A DNA stretch of 64,000 nt, from assembly GCF_003984625.1 (NCBI RefSeq), contig NZ_RWKH01000001.1, positions 248,001 to 312,000 of the forward strand. The letters run 5' to 3'. Source of the stretch: Variovorax sp. DXTD-1. Its GTDB lineage: Bacteria > Pseudomonadota > Gammaproteobacteria > Burkholderiales > Burkholderiaceae_C. Made by a program: the position numbers and the translations under genes. Positions 39,900 to 54,671 of the stretch are shown here, piece after piece. Each line of letters starts with the position of its first letter. Positions within the stretch are counted from its first letter, which is position 1. The notes under the pieces are model-generated. The model was not told the origin of the DNA, did not search any database, and saw only the letters and a program-made list of their open reading frames with translations.

Positions 39900-40783
39900 G
39901 CCTGGACAACATTCCCCCCAACCCGAACCCAAATTCGAACACGCCCGAGCAGTCGCAACTGGGCCGCGCCTCGGACTACGCCGACAAGTACGACGCCTCG
40001 CTGCTCTTTCCGATTGCGCGCGCCACACAGCGTGAAGCCATGGGCATTGCCGCCGGTGCGCTGCCTTTCTTCGGCGCCGACCTCTGGACCGCCTTCGAAG
40101 TGAGCTGGCTCAACCTGCGCGGCAAGCCGCAACTGGCCATCGCGCACTTCACCATTCCCTGTGAAACGCCCAACATCATCGAGAGCAAGTCGTTCAAGCT
40201 GTATCTCAACAGCTTCAACAGCACCGCTTTCGCGAGCATCGATGCCGTGCGCGATCGCATGCGCGCCGACCTGACCGAGGCGCTCTGGCGCGGCGGCGAC
40301 CACTCCGCCGGCATTGGCGTGAAGCTGCTCGCGCCGGACATGTTCGACCGCGAGCCCGTGCATGAACTCGACGGGCTCGACCTTGATCGGCTCGACATCG
40401 AGTGCACCCACTACCAGCCCGCGCCCGAGCTGCTGTCGAGCGACGCCACCCAGCCGCCCGTCAACGAAACGCTCACCAGCCGCCTGCTCAAGAGCAATTG
40501 CCTCGTCACCGGGCAGCCCGACTGGGGCAGCGTGCAGATCCGCTATAGCGGCCCTGCCATCGACCAGGCCGGCCTGCTGGCGTACATCGTGAGCTTTCGC
40601 AACCACCACGAGTTTCACGAGCCGTGTGCCGAGCGCATCTTCACGGACATCTGGAACCGCTGCAAACCGAACAAGCTTGCGGTGTATGCGCGCTACACGC
40701 GGCGCGGCGGGCTCGACATCAACCCGTTCCGCACCAGTTGGCCGCAGGCGCTGCCGCCGAACATCCGCACCGCGCGGCAATAA
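39896..40783 (+). CDS. queF: NADPH-dependent 7-cyano-7-deazaguanine reductase
   Basis: 295 residues, the long bimodular (YqcD/QueF type II) form. The QueF signature ESKSF is at 96-100, the catalytic Cys202 in [15 protein letters not shown] with Asp209, and [10 protein letters not shown] holds substrate contacts. QueF reduces preQ0 to preQ1 in queuosine synthesis. The start ATG overlaps the hydrolase stop. Other que genes are not in the window. The N-terminal 20 residues are Asn/Pro rich and variable in the family. Confidence 0.95.
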
Positions 40784-40811
40784 CGAAGAGGGTGCCGCCG
40801 AAGCCCCTCTT

Positions 40812-40883
40812 CGGAAATCCGGAACTCGCCAGCCGGACCCTGTGGCATTCTGGAACTGCCCGTGAACTGCGGGCGGATTTCCG
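40812..40883. promoter_or_regulatory. Long-spaced inverted repeat upstream of the SDR gene
   Basis: CGGAAATCCG (40812-40821) and CGGATTTCCG (40874-40883) are perfect 10-base inverted arms 52 bases apart, the second ending 12 bases before the SDR start codon. They could be paired operator half-sites or a large hairpin. A small CCGAAG/CTTCGG hairpin (40798-40814) overlaps the first arm. Confidence 0.45.
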
Positions 40884-40895
40884 GAGCAGGCACAC

Positions 40896-41801
40896 ATGGT
40901 TGAAGGAAAAGTGGTCGTTGTTACTGGCGCGGGCGGCGGTATCGGCCGCGACATCGCGCTGGCAATGGCGAAGAGCGGCGCCAAGGTGGTGGTCAACGAC
41001 ATCGGCGCCGCACTCGACGGCGCGGGCGGCAACGCCGGCCCCGCGCAGCAGGTGGTCGACGAGATTCGTGCCGCCGGTGGCCAAGCCGTGCCCAACACCG
41101 ACAGCGTGGCCGAAGCGGCCAGTGCGGCGCGCATCGTCGAATGCGCGGTCGAGAGCTTCGGCCGCATCGACGCCGTGGTCAACAACGCCGGCATCCTGCG
41201 CGACCGCTTCTTCCACAAGATGTCGGTCGACGAATGGGACGCCGTGATCAAGGTGCACCTCTACGGCGCCTACTACGTGAGCCGCGCGGCGGCCACGCAC
41301 TTCAAGGAACAGAACTCCGGCGCCATGGTGCACATGACCTCGACCTCGGGCCTCATCGGCAATTACGGCCAGGCCAATTACGCGGCGGCCAAGCTCGGCA
41401 TCGCGGCGCTGTCCAAGTCGATTGCGCTCGACATGCTCAAGTTCAACGTGCGCTCCAACTGCATTGCGCCCTTCGCGTGGAGCCGCATGATCGGCGCCAT
41501 TCCCACCGACACCGACGAGCAGCGCGCCCGCGTCGACAAGATCAAGCAGATGACGCCCGCCAAGGTCGCGCCGCTCGCGGTGTACCTTGCGAGCGAAGCG
41601 GCCGACGCGGTCAACGGCCAGATCTTCTCGGTGCGCAACAACGAAATTTCGCTCATCAGCCAGCCGCGGCCGGTGCGCTCCATTCACCGCTCCGAGGGCT
41701 GGACACCGCAGAGCATTGCCGAGCACGCCATGCCCGCCATGCGCGCGAGCTTCTATCCGCTGGACCGCTCGGCGGACGTGTTCAGCTGGGACCCGGTCTG
41801 A
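40896..41801 (+). CDS. SDR family dehydrogenase, 3-hydroxyacyl-CoA dehydrogenase-like
   Basis: 301 residues. The cofactor loop TGAGGGIGRD, NNAGILRD, the catalytic Ser in MTSTSGLIGN and YxxxK in YAAAKLGIAAL are all present. Sequence style matches the (3R)-hydroxyacyl-CoA dehydrogenase part of multifunctional enzyme type 2 and bacterial homologues, with a 60-residue C-terminal extension after the usual core. It opens a long block of genes containing acyl-CoA dehydrogenases, a CoA ligase and arylmalonate decarboxylase, so an oxidation step in the same pathway is likely. Substrate unknown. Two LysR genes follow. Confidence 0.82.
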   Translation: MVEGKVVVVTGAGGGIGRDIALAMAKSGAKVVVNDIGAALDGAGGNAGPAQQVVDEIRAAGGQAVPNTDSVAEAASAARIVECAVESFGRIDAVVNNAGILRDRFFHKMSVDEWDAVIKVHLYGAYYVSRAAATHFKEQNSGAMVHMTSTSGLIGNYGQANYAAAKLGIAALSKSIALDMLKFNVRSNCIAPFAWSRMIGAIPTDTDEQRARVDKIKQMTPAKVAPLAVYLASEAADAVNGQIFSVRNNEISLISQPRPVRSIHRSEGWTPQSIAEHAMPAMRASFYPLDRSADVFSWDPV

Positions 41802-41838
41802 GGTCAAACCCCGAGAAGGGCGCGCGCAGCGCCATTCG

Positions 41839-41881
41839 CCGGACAATGCAGGCTTCTTTCCTTTCTGGCGTGCTTGTCCGG
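41839..41881. promoter_or_regulatory. Inverted repeat overlapping the first LysR start
   Basis: CCGGACAA (41839-41846) and TTGTCCGG (41874-41881) are perfect 8-base inverted arms; the last base of the second arm is the first base of the LysR GTG start. This is well placed for autoregulation. Confidence 0.4.
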
Positions 41882-42771
41882 TGAACCTGCATTTCGACCT
41901 GTTCGACCTGAAACTGTTCGTCTACGTGGCGGACGCGCGCAGCCTCACGCGCGGCGCCGAGAAAGCCTGCATCTCGCTGGCGGCCGCTTCCACGCGCATC
42001 AAGCAGATGGAAGAGGCCGTGGGCGGCAAGCTGCTGCACCGCAGCGCGCAGGGCGTGAGCCTCACGGCCGCGGGGCAGGCGGTGCTCTATCACGCCAAGC
42101 GCGTGATGCAGCAGATGGAGCATCTGCGCTGCGACATGCAGGACTTCGGCAAGGGCATCAAGGGCCACGTGCGCGTGTTCGCCAACACCACCTCGATCAC
42201 CGAATACCTGCCGCAGAAGCTCGCGGGTTTTCTCACGCAGCATCCGGCCGTGCAGGTGGACCTGCGCGAATACCTGAGCGAGGAGATCGTTCGCGCCGTG
42301 GCCGACGGCGAGGCCGACATCGGCATCCTGGCCGGCGACGTGCACACCGGCGAATTCGACGCGCGCCCCTTCGGCCGCAACCAGCTCGTGCTGGTGGTGC
42401 CCAAGACGCATCACCTGGCGGGGGCGCCTTCGGTAGCCTTCGCCGACACGCTCGACGAGCAGCATGTGGGCCTGCACCACGGCAGTGCCATTCACCGCTT
42501 TTTGCAGCGCCGCGCCGAGCTGGCCGGCCGCGGCTTCAATCCGCGCATCCAGGTCAGCAGCTTCGAGGCCATCTGCCTGATGATCGAAGCGGGCGTGGGC
42601 GTCGGCGTGCTGCCGGCCTCGTCGGCGCAGCGGCTGTCGATGGCAATGCGGATCTCGACGGTGGCACTCAGCGATGAATGGGCGGAGCGAGAACTCAAGC
42701 TGATCGCGCGCGACCGCGAGCAGCTGCCGGCTTCGGCGCGCGAGCTGTTCGATCACCTCGCCGTGGCCTGA
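41881..42771 (+). CDS. LysR family transcriptional regulator (first of tandem pair)
   Basis: 296 residues from a GTG start. The helix-turn-helix lies at about 20-55 (SLTRGAEKACISLAAASTRI), followed by the linker and a periplasmic-binding-like effector domain with VRVFANTTSITEYLPQKL and IQVSSFEAICLMIEAGVGVG. The next gene, 17 bases downstream, is a clear paralogue with the same LAAAS recognition segment. An 8-base inverted repeat overlaps its start codon. Given its position it probably controls the carboxylate-degradation genes that follow; the inducer is unknown. Confidence 0.88.
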   Translation: MNLHFDLFDLKLFVYVADARSLTRGAEKACISLAAASTRIKQMEEAVGGKLLHRSAQGVSLTAAGQAVLYHAKRVMQQMEHLRCDMQDFGKGIKGHVRVFANTTSITEYLPQKLAGFLTQHPAVQVDLREYLSEEIVRAVADGEADIGILAGDVHTGEFDARPFGRNQLVLVVPKTHHLAGAPSVAFADTLDEQHVGLHHGSAIHRFLQRRAELAGRGFNPRIQVSSFEAICLMIEAGVGVGVLPASSAQRLSMAMRISTVALSDEWAERELKLIARDREQLPASARELFDHLAVA

Positions 42772-42788
42772 AAAAAAGACGTGCAGCC

Positions 42789-43676
42789 ATGTCCGCCGAT
42801 CTGAAGTCGCTGCGCCTGTTCGTGGCCGTGGCCGATCACGGCAGCATCAGTGAAGGGGCCAAGCGCTGCCATATTGCGCTGGCAGCCGCGAGCAAGCGCA
42901 TCTCCGATCTCGAGGCCCGCGCACGGCTGCCCCTGCTGGTGCGCCATGCGCGCGGCGTCACGCTCACTTCAGCCGGCCACGGTCTGCTGCTGCATGCGCG
43001 TGCCGTGCTCTCGGCCATGGACCGGCTGGGCGCGGAGCTCGACGACTTCCAGAACGGCGTGGCGGGCGTGGTCAGCATCACGGCCAACGCGTCCACCATT
43101 GCGCAGTTCCTGCCCGCGCAGATCGGCTCCTTCCTGCGGCTGCATCCCGTGCTCAAGATCGACCTGCAGGAGCGCGCCAGCACCGAGGTGGTGAAAGCCG
43201 TGCAGGCCGGCCTGGCGGACATCGGCGTGATCGAGGGCAACACGCCAGCCGACATGCTCGAATGCCTGCCCTACCGCAGCGATGAACTGGCCGTGGTGGT
43301 GGCGCGCGACCATCCGCTGGCCAGGCGCAAGCGCATCGGCGTGGAGGAAGTGCTGCGGCACGACCATATCGTGGTGCGCGAAGGCACGGCGCTGCACCGC
43401 GTGCTGCTGAACGCGGCGCTGGAGGCGCAGCTGCCGCTCAAGGTGCGCATGCAGGTGGGCAGCTTCGACATGGTGTGCCGCATGGTGGAGCAGGGCGTGG
43501 GCATCGGCGTGCTGCCCTACGCGGCCATCCTGCCGCAGCTGCAGATATTGAAGCTGCGCTGCCTGAAGCTCGATGCGCCGTGGGCGGTGCGCCGCCACCT
43601 GCTGTGCGTGCGGCGGCAGCAAGACCTGACCGCCGCAGCGCGCTCGGTGCTGGAACATCTGGGCCGGCCCGACTGA
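42789..43676 (+). CDS. LysR family transcriptional regulator (second of tandem pair)
   Basis: 295 residues from the ATG at 42789. N-terminal helix-turn-helix (SISEGAKRCHIALAAASKRI) and an effector domain with VVSITANASTIAQFLPAQI and MQVGSFDMVCRMVEQGVGIG. These segments align closely with the upstream LysR, so the two arose by tandem duplication. The pair precedes the enolase-superfamily, Bug receptor and decarboxylase genes and probably regulates them, perhaps responding to different ligands. A 9-base-pair hairpin follows directly after the stop. Confidence 0.88.
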   Translation: MSADLKSLRLFVAVADHGSISEGAKRCHIALAAASKRISDLEARARLPLLVRHARGVTLTSAGHGLLLHARAVLSAMDRLGAELDDFQNGVAGVVSITANASTIAQFLPAQIGSFLRLHPVLKIDLQERASTEVVKAVQAGLADIGVIEGNTPADMLECLPYRSDELAVVVARDHPLARRKRIGVEEVLRHDHIVVREGTALHRVLLNAALEAQLPLKVRMQVGSFDMVCRMVEQGVGIGVLPYAAILPQLQILKLRCLKLDAPWAVRRHLLCVRRQQDLTAAARSVLEHLGRPD

Positions 43677-43682
43677 GCCCGG

Positions 43683-43703
43683 GCCTTCGCGCGGCGCGAA
43701 GGC
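43683..43703 (+). terminator. Strong hairpin after the second LysR gene
   Basis: GCCTTCGCG and CGCGAAGGC pair perfectly around a CGG loop, seven bases after the LysR stop. No T tract follows, so it is either a Rho-assisted end or an mRNA-protecting/processing hairpin separating the regulators from the structural genes. Confidence 0.4.
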
Positions 43704-43783
43704 TCGTGTCCGCCAAAAACGAATTGTTCCCCGCAGCCTGCGCGCCAAGAATGGTGGCGCAACCGCAAGCAAAGGAGACATTC

Positions 43784-44938
43784 TTGAAGATCACCCGCGT
43801 CAGCGCCACGCCGCTGAACATTCCCGTCACCATCGACGTGCTGGGGCTGAACAAGCAGACCTCGCTCTCCCTGTGCCTGACCGAGGTCGAGACCGACACC
43901 GGCCTCGTCGGCCATGGCATGACGGCCATCACCGAAGAAGAGATCATTGCCGCCGCCGTGCGCGAGGTGGCCGGCCCGGCGCTCGTCGGCGAAGACCCGA
44001 TGGCCACCGAGCGGCTGTGGGAGAAGCTCTACTGGCTGCTCTCCCCCCGCGGCCAGACCGGCTATGCAAGCCACACCATCGCCGCGCTCGACATCGCGCT
44101 GTGGGACCTGAAGGGCAAGGCGCTCGGCCAGCCGCTGTGGCGCCTGCTGGGCGGTGCCCGTTCGAAAGTGCCGGTCTATGCGACCTTCGGCTTCGGCTTC
44201 TTCGAGCGCGACCAGCTCGCCGCCGCCGCCAAGCTCTGGGTTTCGCAAGGCTTCCAGCGGCTGAAGATGACGGTCGGCGGCCATGCGCTCGCGCGGCGCG
44301 ACGAGCCGCGGCCCATCGACGAGGTCATTGCAGAAGACGTGCGCCGCGTGGCCGCCGTGCGCGAGGCGGTCGGGCCCGACGTGAAGCTGTATGTCGATGC
44401 CAACTGCGGCCTCGACCTGTTCCACGCGACCGAGCTCGCGCGCCGCATCGAGCCTTACGGCATCAGCTTCTTCGAGGAGCCGCTCACGCAGAATGACGTG
44501 CGCCAGATGGCCCAGCTGCGTGCGCGCACCAGCATTCCGCTGGCCTGCGGCCAGAACGAAGGGCTGGCCTTCCGCTTTCGCGACCTGCTGGTGAACCAGG
44601 CGGCCGACGTGCTGCAGCCCAACGTGACCATCTCAGGCGGCTATTCGCAGTGCCTGAAGATCGCGGGCATGGCGCAGGCCTTCAACGTGCCGATCGACAA
44701 CGGCGGCGCCTGGCCCTTTCACAACATGCACCTGCATGCGGGTGTTTCGAACGGCGGCATGGCCGAATACCACTACGTGGCGGTGCAGATGCTCAAGCAG
44801 ATCTTCGACGGCCTGCCGGTACCGCAAGACGGCTGGCTGCATCTGCCAGAGACCCCGGGCCTGGGCTTCGCGCCCAATGCCGAGCGGGTGCGCGAGCTCG
44901 CGAAGCTGCCCACTTCTCACGGCAAGGGAAAAGCCTAG
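43784..44938 (+). CDS. Enolase-superfamily protein (mandelate racemase/muconate lactonizing enzyme-like) with altered active site
   Basis: 384 residues from a TTG start with AAAGGAG 6 bases upstream. The N-terminal capping domain and the TIM barrel are complete (ASHTIAALDIALWDLKGKAL, LGGARSKVPVYATFGFG). By alignment with mandelate racemase from memory: Lys161 replaces K164, Thr163 replaces K166; Asp205 (YVDANCG) and Glu231 (FFEEPL) are the first two metal ligands; Gln257 (ACGQNEG) stands at the third ligand E247; Asn280 (LQPNVTISGG) at D270; no His is clear at H297. The scaffold is therefore clear but the chemistry is not the standard racemase or dehydratase. It begins the decarboxylase gene run. 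Some catalytic assignments could shift with a structural alignment. Confidence 0.8.
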   Translation: MKITRVSATPLNIPVTIDVLGLNKQTSLSLCLTEVETDTGLVGHGMTAITEEEIIAAAVREVAGPALVGEDPMATERLWEKLYWLLSPRGQTGYASHTIAALDIALWDLKGKALGQPLWRLLGGARSKVPVYATFGFGFFERDQLAAAAKLWVSQGFQRLKMTVGGHALARRDEPRPIDEVIAEDVRRVAAVREAVGPDVKLYVDANCGLDLFHATELARRIEPYGISFFEEPLTQNDVRQMAQLRARTSIPLACGQNEGLAFRFRDLLVNQAADVLQPNVTISGGYSQCLKIAGMAQAFNVPIDNGGAWPFHNMHLHAGVSNGGMAEYHYVAVQMLKQIFDGLPVPQDGWLHLPETPGLGFAPNAERVRELAKLPTSHGKGKA

Positions 44939-44975
44939 AAATGAACGCCCCCCGAAGGGCCGTATTGGAGACACG

Positions 44976-45980
44976 ATGAAAGCCAGAGATATTGTTCGCC
45001 CTGCACGCCGCGAGGCGCTGCGTGCTGCCATGGCACTGGGCCTCGCGGGCCTGTTTGCCGCGCCCGCCGCGTGGGCCCAAAGCTACCCTGACAAGCCGAT
45101 CCGGCTCGTGGTCGGCTACTCGGCCGGAGGCGGCGTCGATGCGGTCGCGCGCCTGCTTGGAACGCGGCTTTCAGCGGTCCTGGGTCAGCAAGTGATGATC
45201 GACAACCGCACCGGCGCCACCGGGCTGATCGCGGCCGAGTTCGTCGCCAAGGCGCCGCCCGACGGCTACACGCTCATGATGGGGGACAGCGCCTTGCTCA
45301 TCGCCAAGCTGCTGCAGCCGAAGATCGGGCTCGATCCGCTCACCAGCTTCAAGCCGGTGGCGGGCGCTTTCGTCTCGCCGCTGATGATTGTCACGGGCAA
45401 CGACTTTCCGGCCAAGACGCCGGCCGAACTGGTGAAGGAGCTCAAGGCCAACCCCGGGCGCTATTCGTTCGCCACCTCGGGCGTTGGCACGGTGCAGCAC
45501 CTGGGTTTCGAGATGCTGAAGCAATCGAGCGGGAGCAACGTGGTGCACGTGCCTTACCGCGGCGCCGCGCAGATCGTGCCCGACGTGGTCGGCGGGCAGG
45601 TGCCCATTGGCGTGGTCAGCGCCACGGCCGGCATGGCGCAAGCCAAGGCCGGCAAGCTGCGCGCAATTGCGCTCATGAACACCGCGCGGCTCGAAGGCGC
45701 CGAGAGCGTGCCGCCGCTGGCCGATGCGCTGCCGGGCTTCGACGTGGCACCGCGGATCTTTGTGCTTGCGCCCGCCGGCACGCCCGACGAAATCGTCGAC
45801 AAGCTCTCGGCCGCCGTAAAGGCGGTACTCGGCACGCCCGAGGCGGGCGCCGCGGCCGCTGCGCAGGGCACGCTGCGCGCCTACGCCACACCGGCGCAGC
45901 TCGGCAAGGACATGGCCGAAGAAACCAGGCGCTGGCAGCGCATCATTGCCGAGCAGAACATCGTGGCGGAGGGCAAGTAG
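44976..45980 (+). CDS. Bug/TctC family receptor, decarboxylase-linked
   Basis: 334 residues from the ATG at 44976 (TTGGAG upstream). A signal peptide with an RRE basic stretch ends AWA before Q35. The mature fold starts YPDKPIRLVVGYSAGGGVDA and contains NRTGATGLIAAEFVAKAPPDG and HVPYRGAAQIVPDVVGGQV. It is sandwiched between the enolase-superfamily gene (37-base gap) and arylmalonate decarboxylase (no gap; the decarboxylase ribosome binding site lies inside its end). It probably captures the substrate of that enzyme, a malonate-like acid. No tctAB carrier is nearby. Confidence 0.9.
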   Translation: MKARDIVRPARREALRAAMALGLAGLFAAPAAWAQSYPDKPIRLVVGYSAGGGVDAVARLLGTRLSAVLGQQVMIDNRTGATGLIAAEFVAKAPPDGYTLMMGDSALLIAKLLQPKIGLDPLTSFKPVAGAFVSPLMIVTGNDFPAKTPAELVKELKANPGRYSFATSGVGTVQHLGFEMLKQSSGSNVVHVPYRGAAQIVPDVVGGQVPIGVVSATAGMAQAKAGKLRAIALMNTARLEGAESVPPLADALPGFDVAPRIFVLAPAGTPDEIVDKLSAAVKAVLGTPEAGAAAAAQGTLRAYATPAQLGKDMAEETRRWQRIIAEQNIVAEGK

Positions 45981-46697
45981 ATGGCACCGCTGCCGCACCT
46001 TGGCCTGATCGTGCCGCCAGCGGCCGGCGCCGTGCCGGTCGATGGCCCGCTGCTGTACGGCGAGCGCATCCGCTTCAGCGCGCTCGGCCTGGGCCTCGGC
46101 GAAATCTCGACGCGCGGATACACCGAGGTGATCGATTCGGTGGTGGAGAAGGCGGTAGCGCTCAAGGCAGAAGGCGTTTCCGCGGTCTCGCTCATGGGCA
46201 CCTCGTTGAGCTTTTTTCGCGGGGCAGATTTCAATGCGCAACTGCAGGCCGAGATGGCACGGGCGACCGGCTTGCCCTGCACCACCATGAGCAACGCCAT
46301 CGTCGGCGCGCTGCGTCAGCTGGGCGTGCGGCGCGTGGCAGTGGCCACCGCCTACATCGACGAGGTCAACGCACACCTGCGGCGCTACCTCGAACAGAGC
46401 GGCTTCGAGCCGCTGGCGCTCGAAGGGCTGGCGATCTCCGACGTGCAGGCAGTGGGCCAAGTGCCTACGCAGGTTCTGGTCGACCTGTGCCTGCGGGTGT
46501 TCGATGCACAGCCCGGGGCGGACGGCATTCTCATCTCGTGCGGCGGGCTGGTCACGCTCGATGCGGTGCGCGAAGTGGAAGCGCGGTTGCAGCTGCCGGT
46601 GGTGTCGAGCTCGCCAGCCGGCTTCTGGGACCTGGTGCGCACCGCGGGCTTCGATGCGCGCTCGGCCGGGCAGGGCCGGCTCTTCGCCGAGGCCTGA
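45981..46697 (+). CDS. Arylmalonate decarboxylase (Asp/Glu racemase fold)
   Basis: 238 residues. Arylmalonate decarboxylase (AMDase, EC 4.1.1.76) removes CO2 from aryl- or alkenyl-malonates without cofactor to give chiral monocarboxylates. The active-site residues of the Bordetella bronchiseptica enzyme appear one position lower here: Tyr47, Gly73-Thr74-Ser75 in SLMGTSLSFFRG (Gly where racemases have the first Cys), Tyr125 in ATAYIDEVN, and Cys187-Gly-Gly in SCGGLVTLD. LIVPPAAGAVPVDG and VSSSPAGFWDLVR are also shared. The gene starts at the base after the Bug receptor stop, so it is coupled to it. Maleate isomerase and Asp/Glu racemase are excluded because the first catalytic Cys is Gly. The natural substrate is unknown. 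Confidence 0.88.
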   Translation: MAPLPHLGLIVPPAAGAVPVDGPLLYGERIRFSALGLGLGEISTRGYTEVIDSVVEKAVALKAEGVSAVSLMGTSLSFFRGADFNAQLQAEMARATGLPCTTMSNAIVGALRQLGVRRVAVATAYIDEVNAHLRRYLEQSGFEPLALEGLAISDVQAVGQVPTQVLVDLCLRVFDAQPGADGILISCGGLVTLDAVREVEARLQLPVVSSSPAGFWDLVRTAGFDARSAGQGRLFAEA

Positions 46698-46725
46698 GGG
46701 CCAAACAAAGTTACGGGAAGACCCC

Positions 46726-48087
46726 TCAGCCGAGCCAGCGGCCGACGCGCGGCGCGGTTTCGAGCTGCCAGATGCGCTCGCACAGCGCCCTGGCTTCTTC
46801 GGCCGTGGCGCCCTCGCCGTAGTGCACCAGGCGCTGCATCTTGTCTTCGATTTCGGCGCGGCTCAGCGTGTTGCCCGGGTCGCCCTTGGGTTCGTCCACG
46901 CGGCCCTGCAGCGTGCGGCCGTCGCGGGTCTGTACGCTGACCTTGCCGATCCAGCGCGCGGGGTACGCGGTATCGACTTCTGCATCGAGCTCCATCGCCA
47001 CCTTGTCGCGGAACGCGGCCACCTCGGGCGCGAGAAAGTCGCGGTCGAACTCGCCCAGCCCGGCGCGGCCATGCACCGCAATCAGGCCCAGTACCGTGCC
47101 CATCGAGAACTTGCCCTGGTGCACCGTGGCCGGCACCGTGACGCGGCCCAGCACGTCGATGGCGCCTTGGTGCACATGCGTGGTCACGCGGGCCACATCG
47201 TCGGGCTTGAGCCTGTGCTGCGTCACCACCTGAAGCAACGCATCGGCCGCGGGATGGGTGTGACGGCACGAGGCGTGGTACTTGAACGAGGTTTCGGCCA
47301 GTGCCCAGCGGGTGCCGAGGCGATCGGTGAGGCGGGCCGGATCGGCGTCGCTCGACATACCCACGCCAAGGCCCTGTGCGCCTTCGAGCACCTTGGCGGC
47401 ACCCGTGAAGCCGTCCTGCGCAAGGTAGGCCGACATGAGCCCGCTGGCTGCCGCATGGGCACAGTGCAGCTGCTTGGAGTCGGCCGCATCGCGCAGAAAC
47501 TCCCAAACCCCCGCTGACTGCGTGCCGGCCGAGCCGAAGGAATGCAGCATCTGCTGCGGTGTGAGCTTCAGCAGGCTGCCCACCGCGGCGGCCGCCGCCA
47601 GCGTGCCCGCCGTTGCCGTGGTGTGAAAGGTCTTGTAATGCGAGCGGCCCAGGAATTCGCCCACGCGGATGCCCACCTCATAGCCTGCAACGACAGCGGT
47701 CAGCAGCTGCGCGCCGGTCGCGCCGATGCTCTGTGCCACGGCCAGCGCCGGTGCGATGACCACCGCGGCGGGGTGGAACACCGAGCCGTTGTGCACGTCG
47801 TCCTGTTCCACGTAGTGCGAAGCCGCCGCGTTGACCAGCGCCGCGAACACCGGCGAGCTGGTGCGGCGCGAGGTGAGTATTTCGCTCGGCCCATCGGCGG
47901 GGCCCATCATCTGCGCAAAGCGCTCGATGGAGCGCACCGGCCGCGCAGTGCGGGCCGCGAGCACCGAGCCCAGCCAATCGAGCATCAGGTCTTCGGTGCG
48001 GCGCAGAACGGGCGCGGGAATGTCCGCGACCTGCAGTTCGGCGGCAAAGGTGGCGAGCACTTTGCTCGGGTGGTTCGAATCGGTCAT
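46726..48087 (-). CDS. MmgE/PrpD family protein
   Basis: 453 residues, full length. The family includes 2-methylcitrate dehydratase (PrpD) and cis-aconitate decarboxylase. Seen here are LDWLGSVLAAR, VNAAASHYVEQDDVHNGSVFHPAA with the conserved Asp-His region, GYEVGIRVGEFLG and KYHASCRHTHPAADA. Exact chemistry within this family cannot be set by sequence; a dehydratase or decarboxylase of a branched hydroxyacid is likely. It is 13 bases downstream of an acyl-CoA dehydrogenase on the same strand and converges with arylmalonate decarboxylase 28 bases away. Confidence 0.88.
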   Translation of the reverse strand: MTDSNHPSKVLATFAAELQVADIPAPVLRRTEDLMLDWLGSVLAARTARPVRSIERFAQMMGPADGPSEILTSRRTSSPVFAALVNAAASHYVEQDDVHNGSVFHPAAVVIAPALAVAQSIGATGAQLLTAVVAGYEVGIRVGEFLGRSHYKTFHTTATAGTLAAAAAVGSLLKLTPQQMLHSFGSAGTQSAGVWEFLRDAADSKQLHCAHAAASGLMSAYLAQDGFTGAAKVLEGAQGLGVGMSSDADPARLTDRLGTRWALAETSFKYHASCRHTHPAADALLQVVTQHRLKPDDVARVTTHVHQGAIDVLGRVTVPATVHQGKFSMGTVLGLIAVHGRAGLGEFDRDFLAPEVAAFRDKVAMELDAEVDTAYPARWIGKVSVQTRDGRTLQGRVDEPKGDPGNTLSRAEIEDKMQRLVHYGEGATAEEARALCERIWQLETAPRVGRWLG

Positions 48088-48100
48088 TGGATCAGTCCCT

Positions 48101-49264
48101 TCAGAACGAGCGCGGCAGGCCGAGCATGTGCTCCGCCACGTAGCTCAGGATGAGGTTGGTCGAGATCGGCGCGACCTGGTACAGCCGCGTCTCGCGGAAT
48201 TTGCGCTCGATGTCGTATTCGCACGCAAAGCCGAAGCCGCCATGGAACTGCAGGCAGGCATTCGCCGCTTCCCAGCTCGCCTTGGCCGCCAGGTACTTCG
48301 CCATGTTGGCTTGCGCGCCGCAGGGCTGGCGCGCATCGAACAGGCGGCAGGCTTCATAGCGCATGAGGTTCGCGGCTTCGATCTCGATGAAGGCTTCGGC
48401 AATGGGGAACTGCACGCCCTGGTTCTGGCCGATGGGCCGGCCGAAGACCACGCGCTCCTTGGTATAGGCCGTGACCTTGTCGATGAACCAGTAGCCGTCG
48501 CCGATGCATTCGGCCGCAATGAGCGTGCGTTCGGCATTGAGGCCGTCGAGGATGTACTTGAAGCCCTGGCCTTCTTCGCCGATCAGGTTCTCGGCCGGGA
48601 TCTCGAGGTTTTCGAAGAAGAGCTCGTTGGTCTCGTGGTTCACCATGTTCAGGATGGGCCGCACCGTCATGCCGTTGCCGATGGCCTCGCGCAGGTCGAC
48701 GATGAAGATCGACATGCCTTCGGACTTTTTCTTCACGTCCGCCAGCGGCGTGGTGCGTGCCAGCAGGATCATCAGGTCCGAGTGCTGGATGCGCGAGATC
48801 CACACCTTCTGCCCGTTGACGACGTACCGGTCGCCCTTCTTCACGGCCGTGGTCTTGATCTTGGTGGTGTCGGTGCCCGTGCTGGGCTCGGTCACGCCCA
48901 TCGACTGCAGCCGCAGCTCGCCGGTGGCAATGCGCGGCAGGTAGTTGCGCTTTTGCGCCTCGCTGCCGTGGCGCAGCAGCGTGCCCATGTTGTACATCTG
49001 GCCGTGGCAGGCGCCGGAGTTGCCACCGCAGCGGTTGATTTCTTCCATGATCACCGAGGCCTCGGTGAGCCCGAGACCGGAGCCGCCGTACTCCTGCGGA
49101 ATGAGCGCGGCCATCCAGCCGGCCTTGGTGAGCGCATCGACGAACTCGGCGGGGTAGCCGCGCGCTTCGTCGACCTTGCGGAAATACTCGTTGGGAAATT
49201 GCGCGCACAGGTCGCGCACGGCGTCGCGGATATCGGAAAAACGGGTGTCGTTGCTGCTGTTCAT
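48101..49264 (-). CDS. Acyl-CoA dehydrogenase
   Basis: 387 residues. MGVTEPSTGTDTTKIKTTAV is the flavin-binding segment, RYVVNGQKVWISR follows, and HGGFGFACEYDIERKFRETR holds the catalytic Glu region and the C-terminal Arg of the fold. It resembles short/branched-chain and glutaryl-type acyl-CoA dehydrogenases more than the PimC/D types at 8946-11255. First gene of a two-gene unit with the MmgE/PrpD gene, divergent from the double acyl-CoA dehydrogenase across 106 bases. Probably oxidises the CoA ester of the island's substrate. Confidence 0.87.
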   Translation of the reverse strand: MNSSNDTRFSDIRDAVRDLCAQFPNEYFRKVDEARGYPAEFVDALTKAGWMAALIPQEYGGSGLGLTEASVIMEEINRCGGNSGACHGQMYNMGTLLRHGSEAQKRNYLPRIATGELRLQSMGVTEPSTGTDTTKIKTTAVKKGDRYVVNGQKVWISRIQHSDLMILLARTTPLADVKKKSEGMSIFIVDLREAIGNGMTVRPILNMVNHETNELFFENLEIPAENLIGEEGQGFKYILDGLNAERTLIAAECIGDGYWFIDKVTAYTKERVVFGRPIGQNQGVQFPIAEAFIEIEAANLMRYEACRLFDARQPCGAQANMAKYLAAKASWEAANACLQFHGGFGFACEYDIERKFRETRLYQVAPISTNLILSYVAEHMLGLPRSF

Positions 49265-49370
49265 CCACCGAATCTATGCCTCTCCCGCGCGAGGCGGTTC
49301 TGTGATTGCGAAACCCTCCCTTCGCCAAATGCAAATGCCGCGCGAGGGGGTGTTCTGTCACGCTGCGGCG

Positions 49371-51698
49371 ATGGACACCGAATCACTCTCTGCCATACGC
49401 GAAGCCGCGCTCGATTACTTCGTTCGCAGCCGTTCCATCCAGCGCCGGCGCGAGCGCATGGAACACCCCGATGCCGGCGAGACGCAAGGCTGGAGCGCGC
49501 TCGCCGAACTGGGCTGGACCGGCATGCTGGCGCCTGAATCGGCCGGCGGTCTGGCCCTGGGCCTCACGGGTGCCGCGCAAATACTGCGGGCGGCCGGCGA
49601 GCACGTCGCCCCCGAACCGCTGCTGGCGGTGGCGGGCCTCAGCGCGCTGCTGCTGGCGCGGCTCGAATCGAAGAGCGCGCAGCCGCTGCTGGCGGACCTC
49701 GTGGCCGGCCGCAGCCTGCCCGCATTGGCTTGGCAGGAGAGCGCGGGCGACCTGAGTGCCGTGCCGCTGGCATGCGGCTGCGAGCCGCGCGCGGGCCATG
49801 CGGGCGGCGTGCTGCTGCAGGGCGAGAAGCTCATGGTGGTGCCCGGCGCGGCGGCCAGCGGCTGGCTGGTGTCGGCGAGGGGCAGCGACGACGCGGTGCT
49901 GCTGTGGGTGCCGCGCGGCACCGCCGGCGTGAGCGAAACCCTGATGCCGCTGGTGGACGGCAGCCAGGCCGCGAGCCTGCGCTTCGAACAGGTGGAGTTG
50001 CCGTCCGAAGCGGTGCTGGCGGAAGGCCCCGCTGCGCAGGACGCGCTGCGCCATGCGCTGGCTGCCGGACAGATCCTGCAGGCCGCCGAGCTGCTGGGCG
50101 TGGGGCAGGCCATGCTCACCCAGACGCTGGCTTACCTGCGCACCCGCTCGCAGTTCGGCAAGCCCATCGGCAGCTTCCAGGCGCTGCAGCACCGCTGCGT
50201 GGACATGTTCATTCACCTCGAGGTGGCGCAAGCCACGTTGGCGGAGGTGCTGTCGCTCGCCAGCCAGGGGCTCGCGGCCGACCGGCTCGAAGCCGAGGCA
50301 AGCCGCGTGAATGCCCGCTGTACCGCCGCGGCGCTGCAGGTTTCGCGTGCGGCCGTGCAGTTGCATGGCGCCATCGGCTACACGCAGGAGTGCGACCTGA
50401 GCCTGTACTACAAGCGCACGCTGTGCCTTTCGGCGTGGCTCGGCAATGCCGCTGCGCACCAGCGCCGCCATGCCATGCTGGCTGACAGCGGGGAAGCACG
50501 AACGGGCATGGCCGATTGGGAGGGCGAGTTTCCGCGCACCGCTGCCTGGAGCGAAATGCCCGAAGCGGATTTCCGCCGCATGGTGCGCGGCTTTCTGCAG
50601 CAGCGCTATCCGCAGCAGTTGCGCTACCTTTCGCACCGGGCCCGCTGGAGCGAGATACGCGACTGGTATCTCACGCTCTCGGCGCAAGGCTGGATCGCGC
50701 CGGCCTGGCCCCAGGCGCATGGCGGCATGGGCCTGCCCGCCGACAAGCTCATTGCATGGATCGAGGAGCTCGAGCAGTACGGCGTCGCGCGCACGCCAGA
50801 CCAGGGCATCGTGATGATCGGCCCACTGTTGATCCAGCACGGCACGCCCGAACAGCAGAGCCGCTTTCTGCCGCGCATATTGAGCGGCGAGCATGTGTGG
50901 TGCCAAGGCTATTCGGAGCCCAACGCCGGCTCCGACCTGGCCGGGCTGCGCACCGAGGCCGTGGCGGGGCGCGATGCAGAGGGCGACCACTTCATCGTCA
51001 ACGGCCAGAAGATCTGGACCACGCTCGCGCAGGACGCCAATCACATCTTCATGCTCGTGCGTACCGACAAGGCCGCGCGCAAGCAAGAGGGCATCAGCTT
51101 TCTGCTGTGCGACCTGCGCACGCCGGGCATCACGGTGCGGCCGATTCACACGCTTTCGGGCGAGCCGGAGTTCTGCGAGGTGTTCTTCGACAACGTGCGC
51201 GTGCCGGCCGAAAACCTGGTGGGCAAGCTGCACGGTGGCTGGACCATTGCCAAGGCGCTGCTGGGCTTCGAGCGCATCTTTCTCGGCAGTCCCAAGCAGT
51301 CGCAGTACGCACTCGGCCAACTGGCGCGGCTTGCGCAGGCGCGGCGCCTTTTTGCAGACCCGGTGTTCGCGCAGCGCTTTGCAGCACTGCGGCTCGACGT
51401 GCTCGACCTGTCGGCCGCCTACACGGGCTTTGCCGACATCGTGCGCGCGGGCAAGCCGCTGCCTGCATCGGTGTCGCTGCTGAAGATCTGGGCCAGCGAA
51501 ACCTATCACCGCATTGGCGCAATGCTGATCGAGGCCGGGGAAGAGCAGGGCGCCGTGGCCGGCGACCAGGTGCTCGACGGACAGACCTTCAACGTGCTGT
51601 CGCCGCTGATCGGTTCGACGGCCGCAATGATCTATGGCGGCACCAACGAGATCCAGCGAAACATCCTCGCGCGGCAGGTGCTCGATCTGCCTGTTTGA
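49371..51698 (+). CDS. Double-domain acyl-CoA dehydrogenase (fusion)
   Basis: 775 residues from the ATG at 49371, about twice the usual length. Residues 1 to about 375 are one dehydrogenase domain (FGKPIGSFQALQHRCVDMFI, LHGAIGYTQECDLSLYYKR), resembling the small-subunit type. From about 385 a second complete domain follows (GYSEPNAGSDLAGLR, NGQKIWTTLAQDANHIF, IYGGTNEIQRNILARQVLD), resembling the PimC-like large subunit. The two halves thus reproduce on one chain the paired subunits seen at 8946-11255. No frameshift is present at the junction. It is followed by a Bug receptor and a CoA ligase gene, so it probably acts on the CoA thioester of the imported acid. Confidence 0.88.
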   Translation: MDTESLSAIREAALDYFVRSRSIQRRRERMEHPDAGETQGWSALAELGWTGMLAPESAGGLALGLTGAAQILRAAGEHVAPEPLLAVAGLSALLLARLESKSAQPLLADLVAGRSLPALAWQESAGDLSAVPLACGCEPRAGHAGGVLLQGEKLMVVPGAAASGWLVSARGSDDAVLLWVPRGTAGVSETLMPLVDGSQAASLRFEQVELPSEAVLAEGPAAQDALRHALAAGQILQAAELLGVGQAMLTQTLAYLRTRSQFGKPIGSFQALQHRCVDMFIHLEVAQATLAEVLSLASQGLAADRLEAEASRVNARCTAAALQVSRAAVQLHGAIGYTQECDLSLYYKRTLCLSAWLGNAAAHQRRHAMLADSGEARTGMADWEGEFPRTAAWSEMPEADFRRMVRGFLQQRYPQQLRYLSHRARWSEIRDWYLTLSAQGWIAPAWPQAHGGMGLPADKLIAWIEELEQYGVARTPDQGIVMIGPLLIQHGTPEQQSRFLPRILSGEHVWCQGYSEPNAGSDLAGLRTEAVAGRDAEGDHFIVNGQKIWTTLAQDANHIFMLVRTDKAARKQEGISFLLCDLRTPGITVRPIHTLSGEPEFCEVFFDNVRVPAENLVGKLHGGWTIAKALLGFERIFLGSPKQSQYALGQLARLAQARRLFADPVFAQRFAALRLDVLDLSAAYTGFADIVRAGKPLPASVSLLKIWASETYHRIGAMLIEAGEEQGAVAGDQVLDGQTFNVLSPLIGSTAAMIYGGTNEIQRNILARQVLDLPV

Positions 51699-51743
51699 GC
51701 CGGTTGCGTTCGCCCAAGAAATAAACAACAGGAGACAAAGCCA

Positions 51744-52733
51744 ATGGAAACCACGGACTTCACACGGCGGCAAGCCGTCGCCGCGCTGGCAGGCAGCGCA
51801 CTGCTGGCCGCACTGCCTTCGCGCGCCTTCGCACAGCCACAGCAGCTGCCGCCACTCATCAAGCTGGTGGTCGGCTACTCCGCGGGCGGGCCGGTGGACG
51901 GCGCGGCGCGCCTGCTTGCGCCCGCGCTGGGCCAGGAGCTCGGCACGCAGGTCATCGTGGAAAACCGGCCCGGCGCCAGCGGCTCGGTAGGTGGCGACGC
52001 GGTCGCCAAGGCTGCGCCCGATGCCGCAATGCTGTTCTTCGGCGCGAGCCCGACGATCACCATCAACCCGAACATCCAGCGCAAGATGCCCTTCGACCCG
52101 ATGAAGGACCTGACGCCCATCGCGCCGCTGGTGGACTACACCAACGTACTCGTGGTCAACAAGGATCTGCCGGTGCACAGCGTGCCCGAGCTGCTGGCCT
52201 ACGCGAAGGCGCGCCCTGGCAAGGTGTTCTACGGCTCGGCGGGCATCGGCGCCTCGAACCACCTGAGCGGCGCGCTGCTCGAGAAGATGGCCGGCGTGCA
52301 GCTGACGCATGTGCCGTACAAAGGCAGCGCGCCCGCGCTGGCCGACGTGATGGGCGGCACCGTGACGATGATGTTCGACATCATCGCCACCTCGCGCCCG
52401 TTCATCCAGTCGGGCAAGCTGCGCGCGCTGGCGGTCACATCGCGCCAGCGCAACCGCATGCTGCCCGAGGTGCCGACGATGATCGAATCGGGCGTGGCCG
52501 GGTATGACGTGGGCGGATGGTTCGGCCTGTACGGCCCCGCGCGCATGGACCCGTCGCTGGTCGGCCGCCTGAATGCGGCCGCGCAGAAGGCCATGGCACG
52601 CGAGGACATCGCCAATCGCCTGCGCGAGCAGGGCTACGAGGTGTGGACGGGTGCTGCGGAACTGCTGGCCACCAAGGGCCAGGCCGACCGGAAGCTCTGG
52701 GCCATCGCGTCCAAGGGCATCGAGGCGGAATAG
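51744..52733 (+). CDS. Bug/TctC family receptor, CoA-ligase-linked
   Basis: 329 residues. The signal region TRRQAVAALAGSALLAALPS has an Arg-Arg near its start and ends RAFA before Q31, so Tat export is possible. The mature part contains IKLVVGYSAGGPVDGAAR, VENRPGASGSVGGDAVAKAAPD and HVPYKGSAPALADVMGG. It differs clearly from the receptor at 44976, so the island encodes two receptors, perhaps for related acids. It ends 3 bases before the acyl-CoA ligase gene, suggesting that capture and activation are coupled. No carrier genes nearby. Confidence 0.9.
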   Translation: METTDFTRRQAVAALAGSALLAALPSRAFAQPQQLPPLIKLVVGYSAGGPVDGAARLLAPALGQELGTQVIVENRPGASGSVGGDAVAKAAPDAAMLFFGASPTITINPNIQRKMPFDPMKDLTPIAPLVDYTNVLVVNKDLPVHSVPELLAYAKARPGKVFYGSAGIGASNHLSGALLEKMAGVQLTHVPYKGSAPALADVMGGTVTMMFDIIATSRPFIQSGKLRALAVTSRQRNRMLPEVPTMIESGVAGYDVGGWFGLYGPARMDPSLVGRLNAAAQKAMAREDIANRLREQGYEVWTGAAELLATKGQADRKLWAIASKGIEAE

Positions 52734-52736
52734 CCG

Positions 52737-54233
52737 ATGGTACCCACGCGAATCCACGAGCTGCTCGAAGAACGCGCATCGCGCTCGCCCGAAGCGGTTT
52801 TTCTTTTCGGGCCCGCGGGCACCGTGTCGTATGCGGCGTTGCAGGCCATGGCAGAGGCCGCCGCCCAAGACCTGCTGGCGGCTGGCGTGCGGCCGACCGA
52901 CCGCGTGCTGCTGGTGGCCGAGAACTGCGTCGCGCACATTGCGCTGATCATGGCGTGCAGCCGTGTCGGTGCCTGGTCGTGCGGCGTCAATGCGCGCATG
53001 TCTCCGGGCGAGATCGCGGCCATTGCCGAGCGCGCGGATGCGCGTGTGTGCTACCTCACCACGGGCGCCTCGGACGCCGCGCTCCAGCATGCGAGCCGCG
53101 CCGGCGCAGTGCCGTCTGCACTGCCGGGCGTGATGCGATCAGCCGTCCGCGCCGAGGCCCGACTGGAGGCCGACCCCGCGCTGGCGGATGCGGCTGCCAT
53201 CATCTTCACATCCGGCACCTCGGGCACGCCGAAGGGCGTGATGGTGTCGCACCGCGGGCTGCTGCATTTCGGCCGCGTGTCGGCCCGCGTGCGCTCACTG
53301 AACGAGCGCGATCGGGTTTACGCCTTCTTGCCGATGACGCACATCTTCGGCATTGGCACGGTGCTGATGGCCGCGCTCACCGGCGGCGCTGCGCTGGTGC
53401 TGCGCGCCAGCTTTTCGCCCGCCGACATGCTGCAGGCACTCGCGCATGAGCAGGTGTCGAACCTGCTCGGCCCGCCCACCATGTATGCGCGCCTGCTGGC
53501 GCACGTCGAGGCGGAGCGCGTTGCGATTCGCTTTCCGGCGCTGCGCTACGTCTACACGGGTTCCGCGCCGCTCGACCTGGGGCTCAAGCAGCGCGTCGAG
53601 GCGCTGTTCGGCCAGCCGCTGCACTATGGCTACGGCCTCTCGGAATACGCGGGCTCGGTGTTCCTGACGCGCGTCGAAGCTCCGCGCGCGGACACGGCCG
53701 CGGGCTACGTGGTGGAAGGCGGCGAGGCACGCATCGTCGACTCGGGCGGCAACGATGTCGCGCCGGGTGAGACAGGCGAAATCTGGCTGCGCGGCCCCGG
53801 CCTCATGCTGGGCTACTTTCGCGATGCGGCGGCCACGGCGCAGGTCATGCGTCCGGGCGGCTGGTATGCGAGCGGCGACCTCGGGCGCTTCGATGCGGAC
53901 GGCGCACTGTTCGTGGTCGGCCGGCTCAAGGAAATGATCATCCGCTCGGGCTTCAACGTCTACCCCGCCGAGATCGAAGCGGTGATCGGCCGCTTCGACG
54001 GCGTGCACCTTTGCGCGGTGGTGGGTGTGCCCGAGGCGGACGGCAACGAGCAGATCGTCGCCTTCGTCGAAATGAAGCCCGGCGCGGTGCTGGAGGAGCC
54101 CGCTCTGCGCACGTACCTGGCCGAGCATCTGTCGCCCTACAAGCGGCCGGCGCGCATCGAGGCGATCGGCGCCATGCCGACCACGGCCAATGGCAAGGTG
54201 CTCAAGCGCGAACTGCAGGCGCGCTGCAGATAG
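52737..54233 (+). CDS. AMP-forming acyl-CoA ligase
   Basis: 498 residues of the adenylate-forming (class I) ligase family. The P-loop is IIFTSGTSGTPKGVMVS, A5 YGYGLSEYAGS, A7/A8 GWYASGDLGRFDADG with GRLKEMIIRSGFNVYP, and the C-terminal catalytic Lys in TTANGKVLKREL. It activates a carboxylic acid to its CoA ester with ATP. The fatty or aromatic acid cannot be chosen from sequence. As the last gene of the catabolic island it likely supplies the CoA thioester for the dehydrogenases. It starts 3 bases after the Bug receptor stop. Confidence 0.9.
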   Translation: MVPTRIHELLEERASRSPEAVFLFGPAGTVSYAALQAMAEAAAQDLLAAGVRPTDRVLLVAENCVAHIALIMACSRVGAWSCGVNARMSPGEIAAIAERADARVCYLTTGASDAALQHASRAGAVPSALPGVMRSAVRAEARLEADPALADAAAIIFTSGTSGTPKGVMVSHRGLLHFGRVSARVRSLNERDRVYAFLPMTHIFGIGTVLMAALTGGAALVLRASFSPADMLQALAHEQVSNLLGPPTMYARLLAHVEAERVAIRFPALRYVYTGSAPLDLGLKQRVEALFGQPLHYGYGLSEYAGSVFLTRVEAPRADTAAGYVVEGGEARIVDSGGNDVAPGETGEIWLRGPGLMLGYFRDAAATAQVMRPGGWYASGDLGRFDADGALFVVGRLKEMIIRSGFNVYPAEIEAVIGRFDGVHLCAVVGVPEADGNEQIVAFVEMKPGAVLEEPALRTYLAEHLSPYKRPARIEAIGAMPTTANGKVLKRELQARCR

Positions 54234-54254
54234 CGGCCTTGTGCGCTGCATGCA

Positions 54255-54671
54255 TCAGCCGAAGATGCAGGCGTGGCCTTTCTGCGTATCCATGTACTCG
54301 CGCATGCGGGCGATGCGCCCGTCCCGGAGTTCGAAGATGAAGCAGTAGTCGTTGTCGTACTTTCTGCCGTTCGCAAGCAGGGCCTGCAAGCGCAGTTCGA
54401 CGATCACGGTGTTGCCTTCGCAGTACCTGCTGCGGAAATCGACGGTGACATCGGAGACGAAAAGCTTCGGGAACATCTCGGCCAGAAAGTGCACGACGGC
54501 CTTCTGTCCGATCATGTGGTCGGGAATGCCAAGCGCCAGCGCAGTGGCGTTGCGCTGCGGCGCGAGCCACTCGGCGTCTTCCGTGAACCAGGCGGCAATG
54601 CGTGCCGCATCGTGGCTTGCGAAGGCCTTCCATGCGTCGGAAACGGTGCGCTTGTTCTGTTCGGGGGTCAT
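54255..54671 (-). CDS. SnoaL-like / NTF2-fold protein
   Basis: 138 residues from the ATG at 54671. An alpha-beta cone typical of the NTF2/SnoaL-like superfamily: QNKRTVSDAWKAFASHDAAR, FTEDAEWLAP, and KYDNDYCFIFELRDGRIARM. Members include small cyclases, isomerases, dehalogenase-like enzymes and non-catalytic ligand-binders, so no reaction is assigned. It converges with the acyl-CoA ligase gene 21 bases away; it may handle an intermediate of that pathway, but this is only a neighbourhood argument. Confidence 0.72.
   Translation of the reverse strand: MTPEQNKRTVSDAWKAFASHDAARIAAWFTEDAEWLAPQRNATALALGIPDHMIGQKAVVHFLAEMFPKLFVSDVTVDFRSRYCEGNTVIVELRLQALLANGRKYDNDYCFIFELRDGRIARMREYMDTQKGHACIFG

Follow-up and report, generated by a model that had tools for sequence, protein, structure and literature searches.

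The mandelate pathway of Pseudomonas putida consists of mandelate racemase, (S)-mandelate dehydrogenase, benzoylformate decarboxylase and benzaldehyde dehydrogenase. Arylmalonate decarboxylase (AMDase) is a well-known and much-used industrial biocatalyst, whose natural substrate was called unknown by Yoshida et al. in 2015 (PMC4424294) and likewise by Maimanakos et al. in 2016 (PMC4996985), in agreement with the first-pass annotation of the DNA described here. According to the latter survey, AMDase genes adjoin a gene of the mandelate racemase/muconate lactonising enzyme (MR/MLE) group in 61% of the sequences, accompanied by an orphan TctC/Bug receptor in Betaproteobacteria and by a full tripartite tricarboxylate transporter (TTT) in Alphaproteobacteria, the clusters being sorted into types TTT-I to TTT-V, TRAP and ABC. 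We have studied the AMDase gene of Variovorax sp. DXTD-1 within a window of 64,000 bp (G000:C1:248001-312000 of a 5.25-Mb assembly), where it likewise stands beside an MR/MLE enolase and an orphan TctC/Bug receptor. Because this core association was published in 2016, it is not new; the sections of that survey consulted here, however, hold no cassette border, presence/absence test, hydroxyacid dehydrogenase link or check of enolase residues. Nor did our search of the open literature, outside which most subscription papers lie, return a link between AMDase and a hydroxyacid dehydrogenase, cassette borders or an analysis of the enolase residues. Judged by comparison with related loci, the AMDase gene is one of four that make up a cassette, found or missing as a whole, within a separate resident catabolic island. 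What we describe is a known association with new features (its borders, a dehydrogenase, an altered enolase site), from which a testable proposal for the natural role of AMDase can be drawn: sister cassettes suggest a physiological role around a 2-hydroxy acid, instead of a pathway dependent on coenzyme A (CoA).

The borders of the cassette come from two AMDase-negative loci (L131 and L132), in which only 41 bp lie between the blocks that match window positions 40001-42763 and 46733-54500, versus 3,969 bp in the window, where the intervening DNA holds LysR2, the enolase, Bug1 and AMDase (Table 1). Both breaks in the alignment fall just within LysR1 and PrpD, a few bases from their ends. In L131-L150, 20 loci negative for AMDase, the spacing of the matched ends of these two genes was 25-45 bp in 10, 81-82 bp in two, 247-266 bp in three, 852-1011 bp in four and 3.5 kb in one. 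We tabulated 76 loci, namely the window, 51 other AMDase loci from the genus (L067-L117), 23 that carry an orthologue of the window's PrpD (L131-L153, of which L152 and L153 come from genomes with AMDase at another place) and one AMDase fragment; genes were called from open reading frames (ORFs) and matches to reference proteins, so that families without a reference could escape. Full island and cassette occur together in 26 of the 76 (the window and 25 others), and the full island with none of LysR2, enolase, Bug1 and AMDase in 15. The cassette without PrpD, the acyl-CoA dehydrogenase (ACAD) ACAD1, the fused ACAD, Bug2 and the CoA ligase in the sequence examined accounts for a further 15, made up of the 11 loci of a second AMDase clade (clade B, L107-L117) together with L099, which retains the SDR gene, L103, L104 and L106, which sits on an 11.9-kb contig. 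The remaining 17 are partial, some ending at the ends of contigs or stretches. AMDase, Bug1 and enolase co-occur in every tabulated AMDase locus but one contig-end fragment (L157).

The first-pass annotation had read the whole neighbourhood as one pathway, in which a Bug receptor would import a malonate-like acid, AMDase would decarboxylate it, the CoA ligase would activate the product, and the ACADs, PrpD and the enolase would complete its oxidation. The genes are indeed contiguous in the window and 25 further loci, and their directions fit a single island. However, the comparison of neighbourhoods, named beforehand as a way to refute this pathway, went against it: the cassette lacks the other genes in 15 loci and the island lacks the cassette in 15; an empty site exists for each of the two AMDase clades (the second is described below); and three loci (L083, L085 and L089) keep the cassette, LysR1, PrpD and ACAD1 while SDR, fused ACAD, Bug2 and CoA ligase are all absent. 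A 61-row PrpD tree requires 10 or more changes of cassette state, of which well-supported branches account for seven or more, gains, losses and recombinational exchange not being distinguished, and no association between the cassette and the fused ACAD was detectable there, the six informative pairs being too few to exclude a link. We consider a single shared pathway very unlikely. What survives of it is the grouping of AMDase with Bug1, the enolase and a dedicated LysR; that PrpD, both ACADs, Bug2 and the ligase share a pathway with them is not supported and, since cassette and island occur apart, the CoA activation of the AMDase product has no comparative support. Also, SDR, fused ACAD, Bug2 and CoA ligase are missing jointly despite lying on either side of the cassette, which suggests that these four may form a further separate functional unit. 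A guess of ten genes has in this way become a four-gene cassette with exact borders.

By family score, structure alignment and motif, the window's AMDase is genuine. It scores 378.7 bits against NF052327 (cut-off 225) and aligns over its full length with the AMDase structures of Bordetella bronchiseptica (3dtv, E 6.5e-80), and it carries the catalytic Gly73, Thr74, Ser75, Tyr125 and Cys187 of the earlier description. The published residue set is there too (in Bordetella numbers P14 P15, L40, Y48, G74, T75, S76, Y126, V156, C188 and G189), with Ile for V43 and Val for M159, similar residues which the published rule, as given in Table 4 of PMC4996985, permits. It is the sole match of its family in its own genome, and its highest identity to a protein named Variovorax paradoxus (P0015) is 96%. 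The enzyme of B. bronchiseptica KU1201 (3dtv, 2vlb) shares its end-to-end alignment and the same catalytic Gly/Cys pattern; it differs in its clade and surroundings, as set out further on. The base-to-base coupling to a Bug receptor holds as well, the Bug1 stop codon TAG ending at 45980 and the AMDase ATG starting at 45981. Among 40 related loci of the window's own clade (clade A, L067-L106), this gap lies between -17 and +4 bp in 29 (0 in eight) and between 66 and 319 bp in 11. The best solved relative of Bug1 is 2dvz, followed by 5oei and BugD, and no TctA was matched in any of these 40 loci, which makes Bug1 an orphan receptor of the Bug/TctC kind. All the neighbours named at first pass are real, by Pfam or, for LysR1, by similarity; the description of the block needs small corrections, as the enolase ORF may start at 43751 (ATG) instead of 43784, LysR1 and LysR2 span 41881-42771 and 42789-43676, and the SDR gene belongs to the island too.

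Table 1. Genes of the resident island and of the AMDase cassette, in window positions
Feature	Position	Strand	Basis	Placement or remark
SDR oxidoreductase	40896-41801	+	PF00106	Resident island, outside cassette
LysR1	41881-42771	+	Similarity to LysR2; kept in AMDase-negative loci	Resident-island regulator, outside cassette
LysR2	42789-43676	+	PF03466 + PF00126	Cassette regulator; at this site seen only with cassette genes
AMDase-associated enolase (AAE)	43751-44938	+	PF02746 + PF13378	MR/MLE fold, altered active site
Bug1	44976-45980	+	PF03401	TctC-type periplasmic receptor, no TctA nearby
Arylmalonate decarboxylase (AMDase)	45981-46697	+	NF052327, PF17645, 3dtv alignment, motif check	
MmgE/PrpD protein	46726-48087	-	PF03972 + PF19305; orthologue in AMDase-negative genomes	Resident island
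ACAD1, acyl-CoA dehydrogenase	48101-49264	-	PF00441, PF02770, PF02771	Resident island
Fused double ACAD	49371-51698	+	Halves match PimD-/PimC-type models, under their cut-offs	Resident island
Bug2 receptor	51744-52733	+	PF03401	Resident island
AMP-forming acyl-CoA ligase	52737-54233	+	PF00501 + PF13193	Resident island
AMDase cassette, 3,969 bp	42764-46732		Alignment to AMDase-negative L131 and L132	

The second new feature is the active site of the enolase. The mandelate racemase of P. putida (1mns, 1mdr) was aligned with 133 enolases of the AMDase type, taken from AMDase loci and from the database relatives of the window's enolase. Most of these rows share at least 70% identity with the latter, so that the counts are of related sequences, among which the alphaproteobacterial rows are the more telling. 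In racemase numbering, K164, D195, N197, E221 and E317 are kept in all 133. The general bases (K166, H297) and D270 are gone in every row, the window's included: K166 is replaced by T (112) or V (21), D270 by N and H297 by G, although column 297 lies in a gapped stretch where an alternative reading with N is possible. Of the metal ligands, D195 and E221 are retained and E247 is Gln throughout; W249 has become E. The protein has the capping domain and the barrel of the MR/MLE group; still, with its catalytic residues replaced, the label of mandelate racemase or muconate lactonising enzyme is unsupported as a statement about its chemistry, and databases that call this partner a mandelate racemase should be read with caution. 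Other enolases found in AMDase loci (L193 and L183) retain E247 and D270. A structure model of the window's enolase has a mean pLDDT of 75.5, falling below 50 at residues 307-329, that is, at the altered site, and for this reason was used for the fold only.

The replacement of both general bases and of two more acidic residues might mean that the enolase is a catalytically dead homologue, retained as a binding or regulatory partner. We find this highly improbable, as the five invariant residues together with Q247, E249 and N270 in 133/133 rows, from Alpha- and Betaproteobacteria among others, point to an active site under selection. Relatives that share Q247 and N270 and have no AMDase within 8 kb lie by importer genes in Paracoccus pantotrophus (TctC, TctA), Neorhizobium (TctA), Burkholderia arboris (BenE) and Halostagnicola larsenii, where the haloarchaeal gene comes after a complete TctCBA importer on a plasmid (L248). 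Such importer-linked enolases would fit a scheme in which the enzyme acts first on the imported acid, by elimination or ring opening, giving the alkenyl malonate that AMDase would then use, while a dehydrogenase would act on a branch product. With two negative side chains gone (E247Q, D270N), the site would be suited to a substrate carrying one more carboxylate. However, these relatives are only 40-54% identical to the window's enolase and the one from Paracoccus lacks E249, so that their role may differ, and none has, to our knowledge, an assigned reaction. An enolase acting first appears quite unlikely to us, though it is a main rival of the reading that we prefer.

A route through a 2-hydroxy acid is suggested by the sister cassettes of clade B. 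In these loci (L107-L117) the order is AMDase-LysR-enolase-Bug and the genomic site is a different one; their AMDase is 56-59% identical to the window's and their LysR only 35-40%. Here too an empty site exists: AMDase-negative genome G086 (L251) has 65 bp where genome G051 (L113) has 5,247 bp, with both flanks matching, and the insert consists of AMDase, LysR, enolase, Bug and a 2-hydroxyacid dehydrogenase dependent on flavin mononucleotide (FMN). In another clade-B genome (G029, L117) the left flank is not clean, with about 7 kb extra between flank and AMDase. The cassette dehydrogenase, present in nine of the 11 clade-B loci, forms a clade of its own apart from the core Variovorax paralogue (support 100 in the Shimodaira-Hasegawa-like approximate likelihood-ratio test, SH-aLRT), and it is this separate clade, together with the second empty site, that leads us to regard the 2-hydroxyacid dehydrogenase as a cassette gene in one clade. 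As a control, the flanks retrieved for clade-A loci L067-L106 and for L131-L153 held no 2-hydroxyacid dehydrogenase above 100 bits. The core enzyme of the genome studied here is 72% identical to the cassette copy of Pseudacidovorax. As a genome-wide partner of AMDase, FMN hydroxyacid dehydrogenase is uninformative, with relatives in 98 of 101 genomes, and the cassette copy alone counts.

More distant lineages were approached through a survey of related loci limited to the best 80 of 151 confirmed places, so that other lineages exist beyond it. On plasmid p-SCP4 of Ponticoccus alexandrii (L243, gene names as deposited), one strand carries genes for MarR, a hydroxyacid oxidase and the enolase, with a 1-base overlap between oxidase and enolase, and the other strand carries TctC-TctB-TctA-AMDase followed by an aldehyde dehydrogenase and a thiamine diphosphate (ThDP) enzyme, with an overlap of 4 bases between AMDase and TctA. 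The best single-domain solved relative of this oxidase is (S)-mandelate dehydrogenase, ranking behind two long lactate-oxidase chains that matched in four pieces. In Nitratireductor pacificus (L239), one enolase adjoins an oxidase with 61% identity to the Ponticoccus enzyme, while a second enolase adjoins AMDase; in Nitratireductor pb3 (L238), TRAP-importer-like genes, enolase and AMDase are found with an oxidase linked to flavin adenine dinucleotide (PF01565, PF02913) 7.2 kb before AMDase. The Ponticoccus cluster resembles the mandelate pathway of P. putida in its mandelate racemase homologue, (S)-mandelate-dehydrogenase-like oxidase, ThDP enzyme and aldehyde dehydrogenase, and differs from it by its entry through AMDase and a TTT importer and by an enolase without the racemase bases. 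All four families of the mandelate type are thus found in Ponticoccus, whereas clade-B cassettes have the dehydrogenase but neither ThDP decarboxylase nor aldehyde dehydrogenase, and the window's cassette holds the enolase alone of the four, for which reason we do not file it as a mandelate operon; it may nonetheless function like the opening part of such an operon.

PMC4517146 reports that AMDase decarboxylates alpha-hydroxy-alpha-aryl, -heteroaryl and -alkenyl malonates to enantioenriched hydroxy acids, that hydroxymalonates are good substrates, and that the products are assigned as (R), like mandelate. Taken with the dehydrogenase of the cassette and with the Ponticoccus cluster, this known activity suggests a route via a 2-hydroxy acid. 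In the reading that we prefer, and hold to be plausible if slightly on the doubtful side, the cassette takes up a dicarboxylic acid, AMDase makes an (R)-2-hydroxy acid from an alpha-hydroxy-alpha-(aryl/alkenyl)malonate, and a flavin 2-hydroxyacid dehydrogenase oxidises the product. Bug1 would import the acid, possibly with a shared TctAB, and LysR2 would respond to it; AMDase would decarboxylate the alpha-hydroxymalonate, the probable class of its natural substrate; the enolase, at best guess, would convert the hydroxy acid or a precursor, stereochemically or by isomerisation, with its non-classical residues; the hydroxy acid would be oxidised by the flavin-dependent dehydrogenase, presumably an unlinked core enzyme in the window's genome; and in some hosts a ThDP decarboxylation and then an aldehyde oxidation might follow. 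The gene facts come from sequence comparison, and every enzymatic step in this organism is one that we infer. A bolder version, rather doubtful as a whole, would make AMDase the entry to a tartronate-type branch of mandelate metabolism, with import of a hydroxymalonate, formation of the (R)-acid, inversion or isomerisation by a new class of enolase whose acid/base sites are neutralised, and flavin oxidation. If true, such a branch would explain both the strict (R)-selectivity of AMDase and its long-missing substrate, and the module would spread as a cassette of four to five genes; our literature search for aryltartronate or phenylmalonic-semialdehyde routes returned nothing. In any case, a partner enolase with an unexplained active site and a dehydrogenase in the cassettes of sister strains narrow the substrate question to three enzymes and one receptor, with alpha-hydroxymalonates as the first candidates.

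How far the dehydrogenase follows AMDase elsewhere was assessed in 122 distinct AMDase or AMDase-like loci, counted after the exclusion of L121 and L122 (motif not that of an AMDase) and of 14 duplicates, 71 of them outside the two Variovorax clades (11 with the enolase and 60 without). In this last group, a flavin 2-hydroxyacid dehydrogenase lies within 10 kb in 5/11 enolase-positive versus 2/60 enolase-negative loci (Fisher p 0.0006, with the kinship of the loci uncorrected), a contrast that may run partly across different families, since a clade of 39 AMDase-like rows counted as enolase-negative, mostly with VIGTSLTF/VMGTSLTF motifs, is possibly not made of true AMDases. On the AMDase tree, the presence of the enolase requires eight changes, at least four on well-supported branches. 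The two enolase-negative cases, Achromobacter insolitus (9.2 kb away) and SAR86 (5.9 kb, opposite strand), were kept in the count and not accepted as links.

A good number of observations, the uncorrected kinship just mentioned among them, weigh against the 2-hydroxy acid route. In 6 of the 11 enolase-positive loci the dehydrogenase was not seen, some of their flanks being short. Two clade-B loci (L107 and L110) have a core-type dehydrogenase only, 4.5-5 kb downstream of the AMDase start, and as the clade-B site lies close to the core gene, part of the closeness is inherited position. The window's own cassette has no dehydrogenase gene. The nearest one found (G000:C1:312077-313216, starting 77 bp beyond the window and about 17 kb from AMDase) belongs to the core group and, because its relatives are present in 98/101 genomes, with or without AMDase, it cannot serve as evidence. 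The clade-B-type oxidase of Pseudacidovorax has glycolate oxidase and hydroxyacid oxidase 1 as closer relatives than mandelate dehydrogenase, that of Ponticoccus falls under every listed NCBIfam cut-off, and the similarity of the Ponticoccus ThDP enzyme to its best solved relative, benzoylformate decarboxylase, is weak. Benzoylformate decarboxylase (NF005485 above cut-off) was found in 16/53 AMDase-positive versus 11/48 other genomes, no clear association, and was dropped as a genome-wide partner. The AMDase of B. bronchiseptica groups with Alcaligenaceae sequences, in whose examined loci no such enolase occurs. Finally, oxidases of the 2-hydroxyacid dehydrogenase kind are usually (S)-specific whereas AMDase gives the (R)-product, so that a stereo-inverting step is needed; an enolase inverting the acid would resolve the mismatch, but this enzyme lacks both racemase bases, and its altered site makes inversion uncertain. 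Some of these points favour a simpler substrate, a plain alpha-aryl or alpha-alkenyl malonate decarboxylated to an arylacetic or 2-arylpropionic acid, with the clustered dehydrogenases serving another substrate: many AMDase loci, those of the prototype's clade included, show no 2-hydroxyacid dehydrogenase nearby, and the first AMDase strain was enriched on phenylmalonate (PMC4424294). A plain malonate, however, leaves the dehydrogenase inside the clade-B cassette and the overlap of dehydrogenase and enolase genes in Ponticoccus unexplained, and we regard it as an unlikely substrate.

The occurrence of AMDase in the genus exceeds what chance would give. AMDase above the cut-off was found in 53 of the 101 genomes of the genus, in 4 of 399 sampled genomes of the order (two from this genus) and in 2 of 398 of the phylum (both from this genus). 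The orthologue of the window's PrpD (at least 80% identity) occurs in 22 of the 48 genomes lacking such an AMDase, one of which (G099) has a contig-end AMDase fragment. The enolase is present in 56 of the 101, that is, in 52 of the 53 AMDase-positive genomes and in G066, G067, G099 and G100. The exception, G054 (L118), has a divergent AMDase without Bug1 and without enolase. In the four genomes with the enolase and no AMDase above the cut-off, the contigs are of 4,754, 6,934, 4,162 and 9,491 bp respectively; in G066, G099 and G100 the contig ends at the gene or close to it, on the flank that AMDase would occupy, and in G067, which has another gene order, there is space for at most part of an AMDase ahead of it. 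Outside the genus, enolases 85-89% identical to the window's (P0127, P0133, P0158, P0160 and P0164) are named for Ottowia, Methylocella, Beijerinckia-like bacteria and other Rhizobiales, which suggests recent transfer between proteobacterial classes.

In the prototype's clade, two Achromobacter loci also differ from the window by a GMC oxidoreductase gene downstream of AMDase (A. anxifer, L198, and A. insolitus, L201), accompanied in A. insolitus by a gluconate-2-dehydrogenase subunit 3 gene and a cytochrome c gene; perhaps a periplasmic alcohol oxidation step takes place in this clade. Three metagenome bins titled Bordetella parapertussis (L162, L163 and L164), titles that resemble automatic best-hit names, hold an AMDase-like gene of the VLGTSLTF type. 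In Antarcticimicrobium (L196, L213 and L218), a gene of the 3-hydroxyisobutyrate-dehydrogenase type stands directly before AMDase, with a kynureninase-type gene beyond it on the opposite strand.

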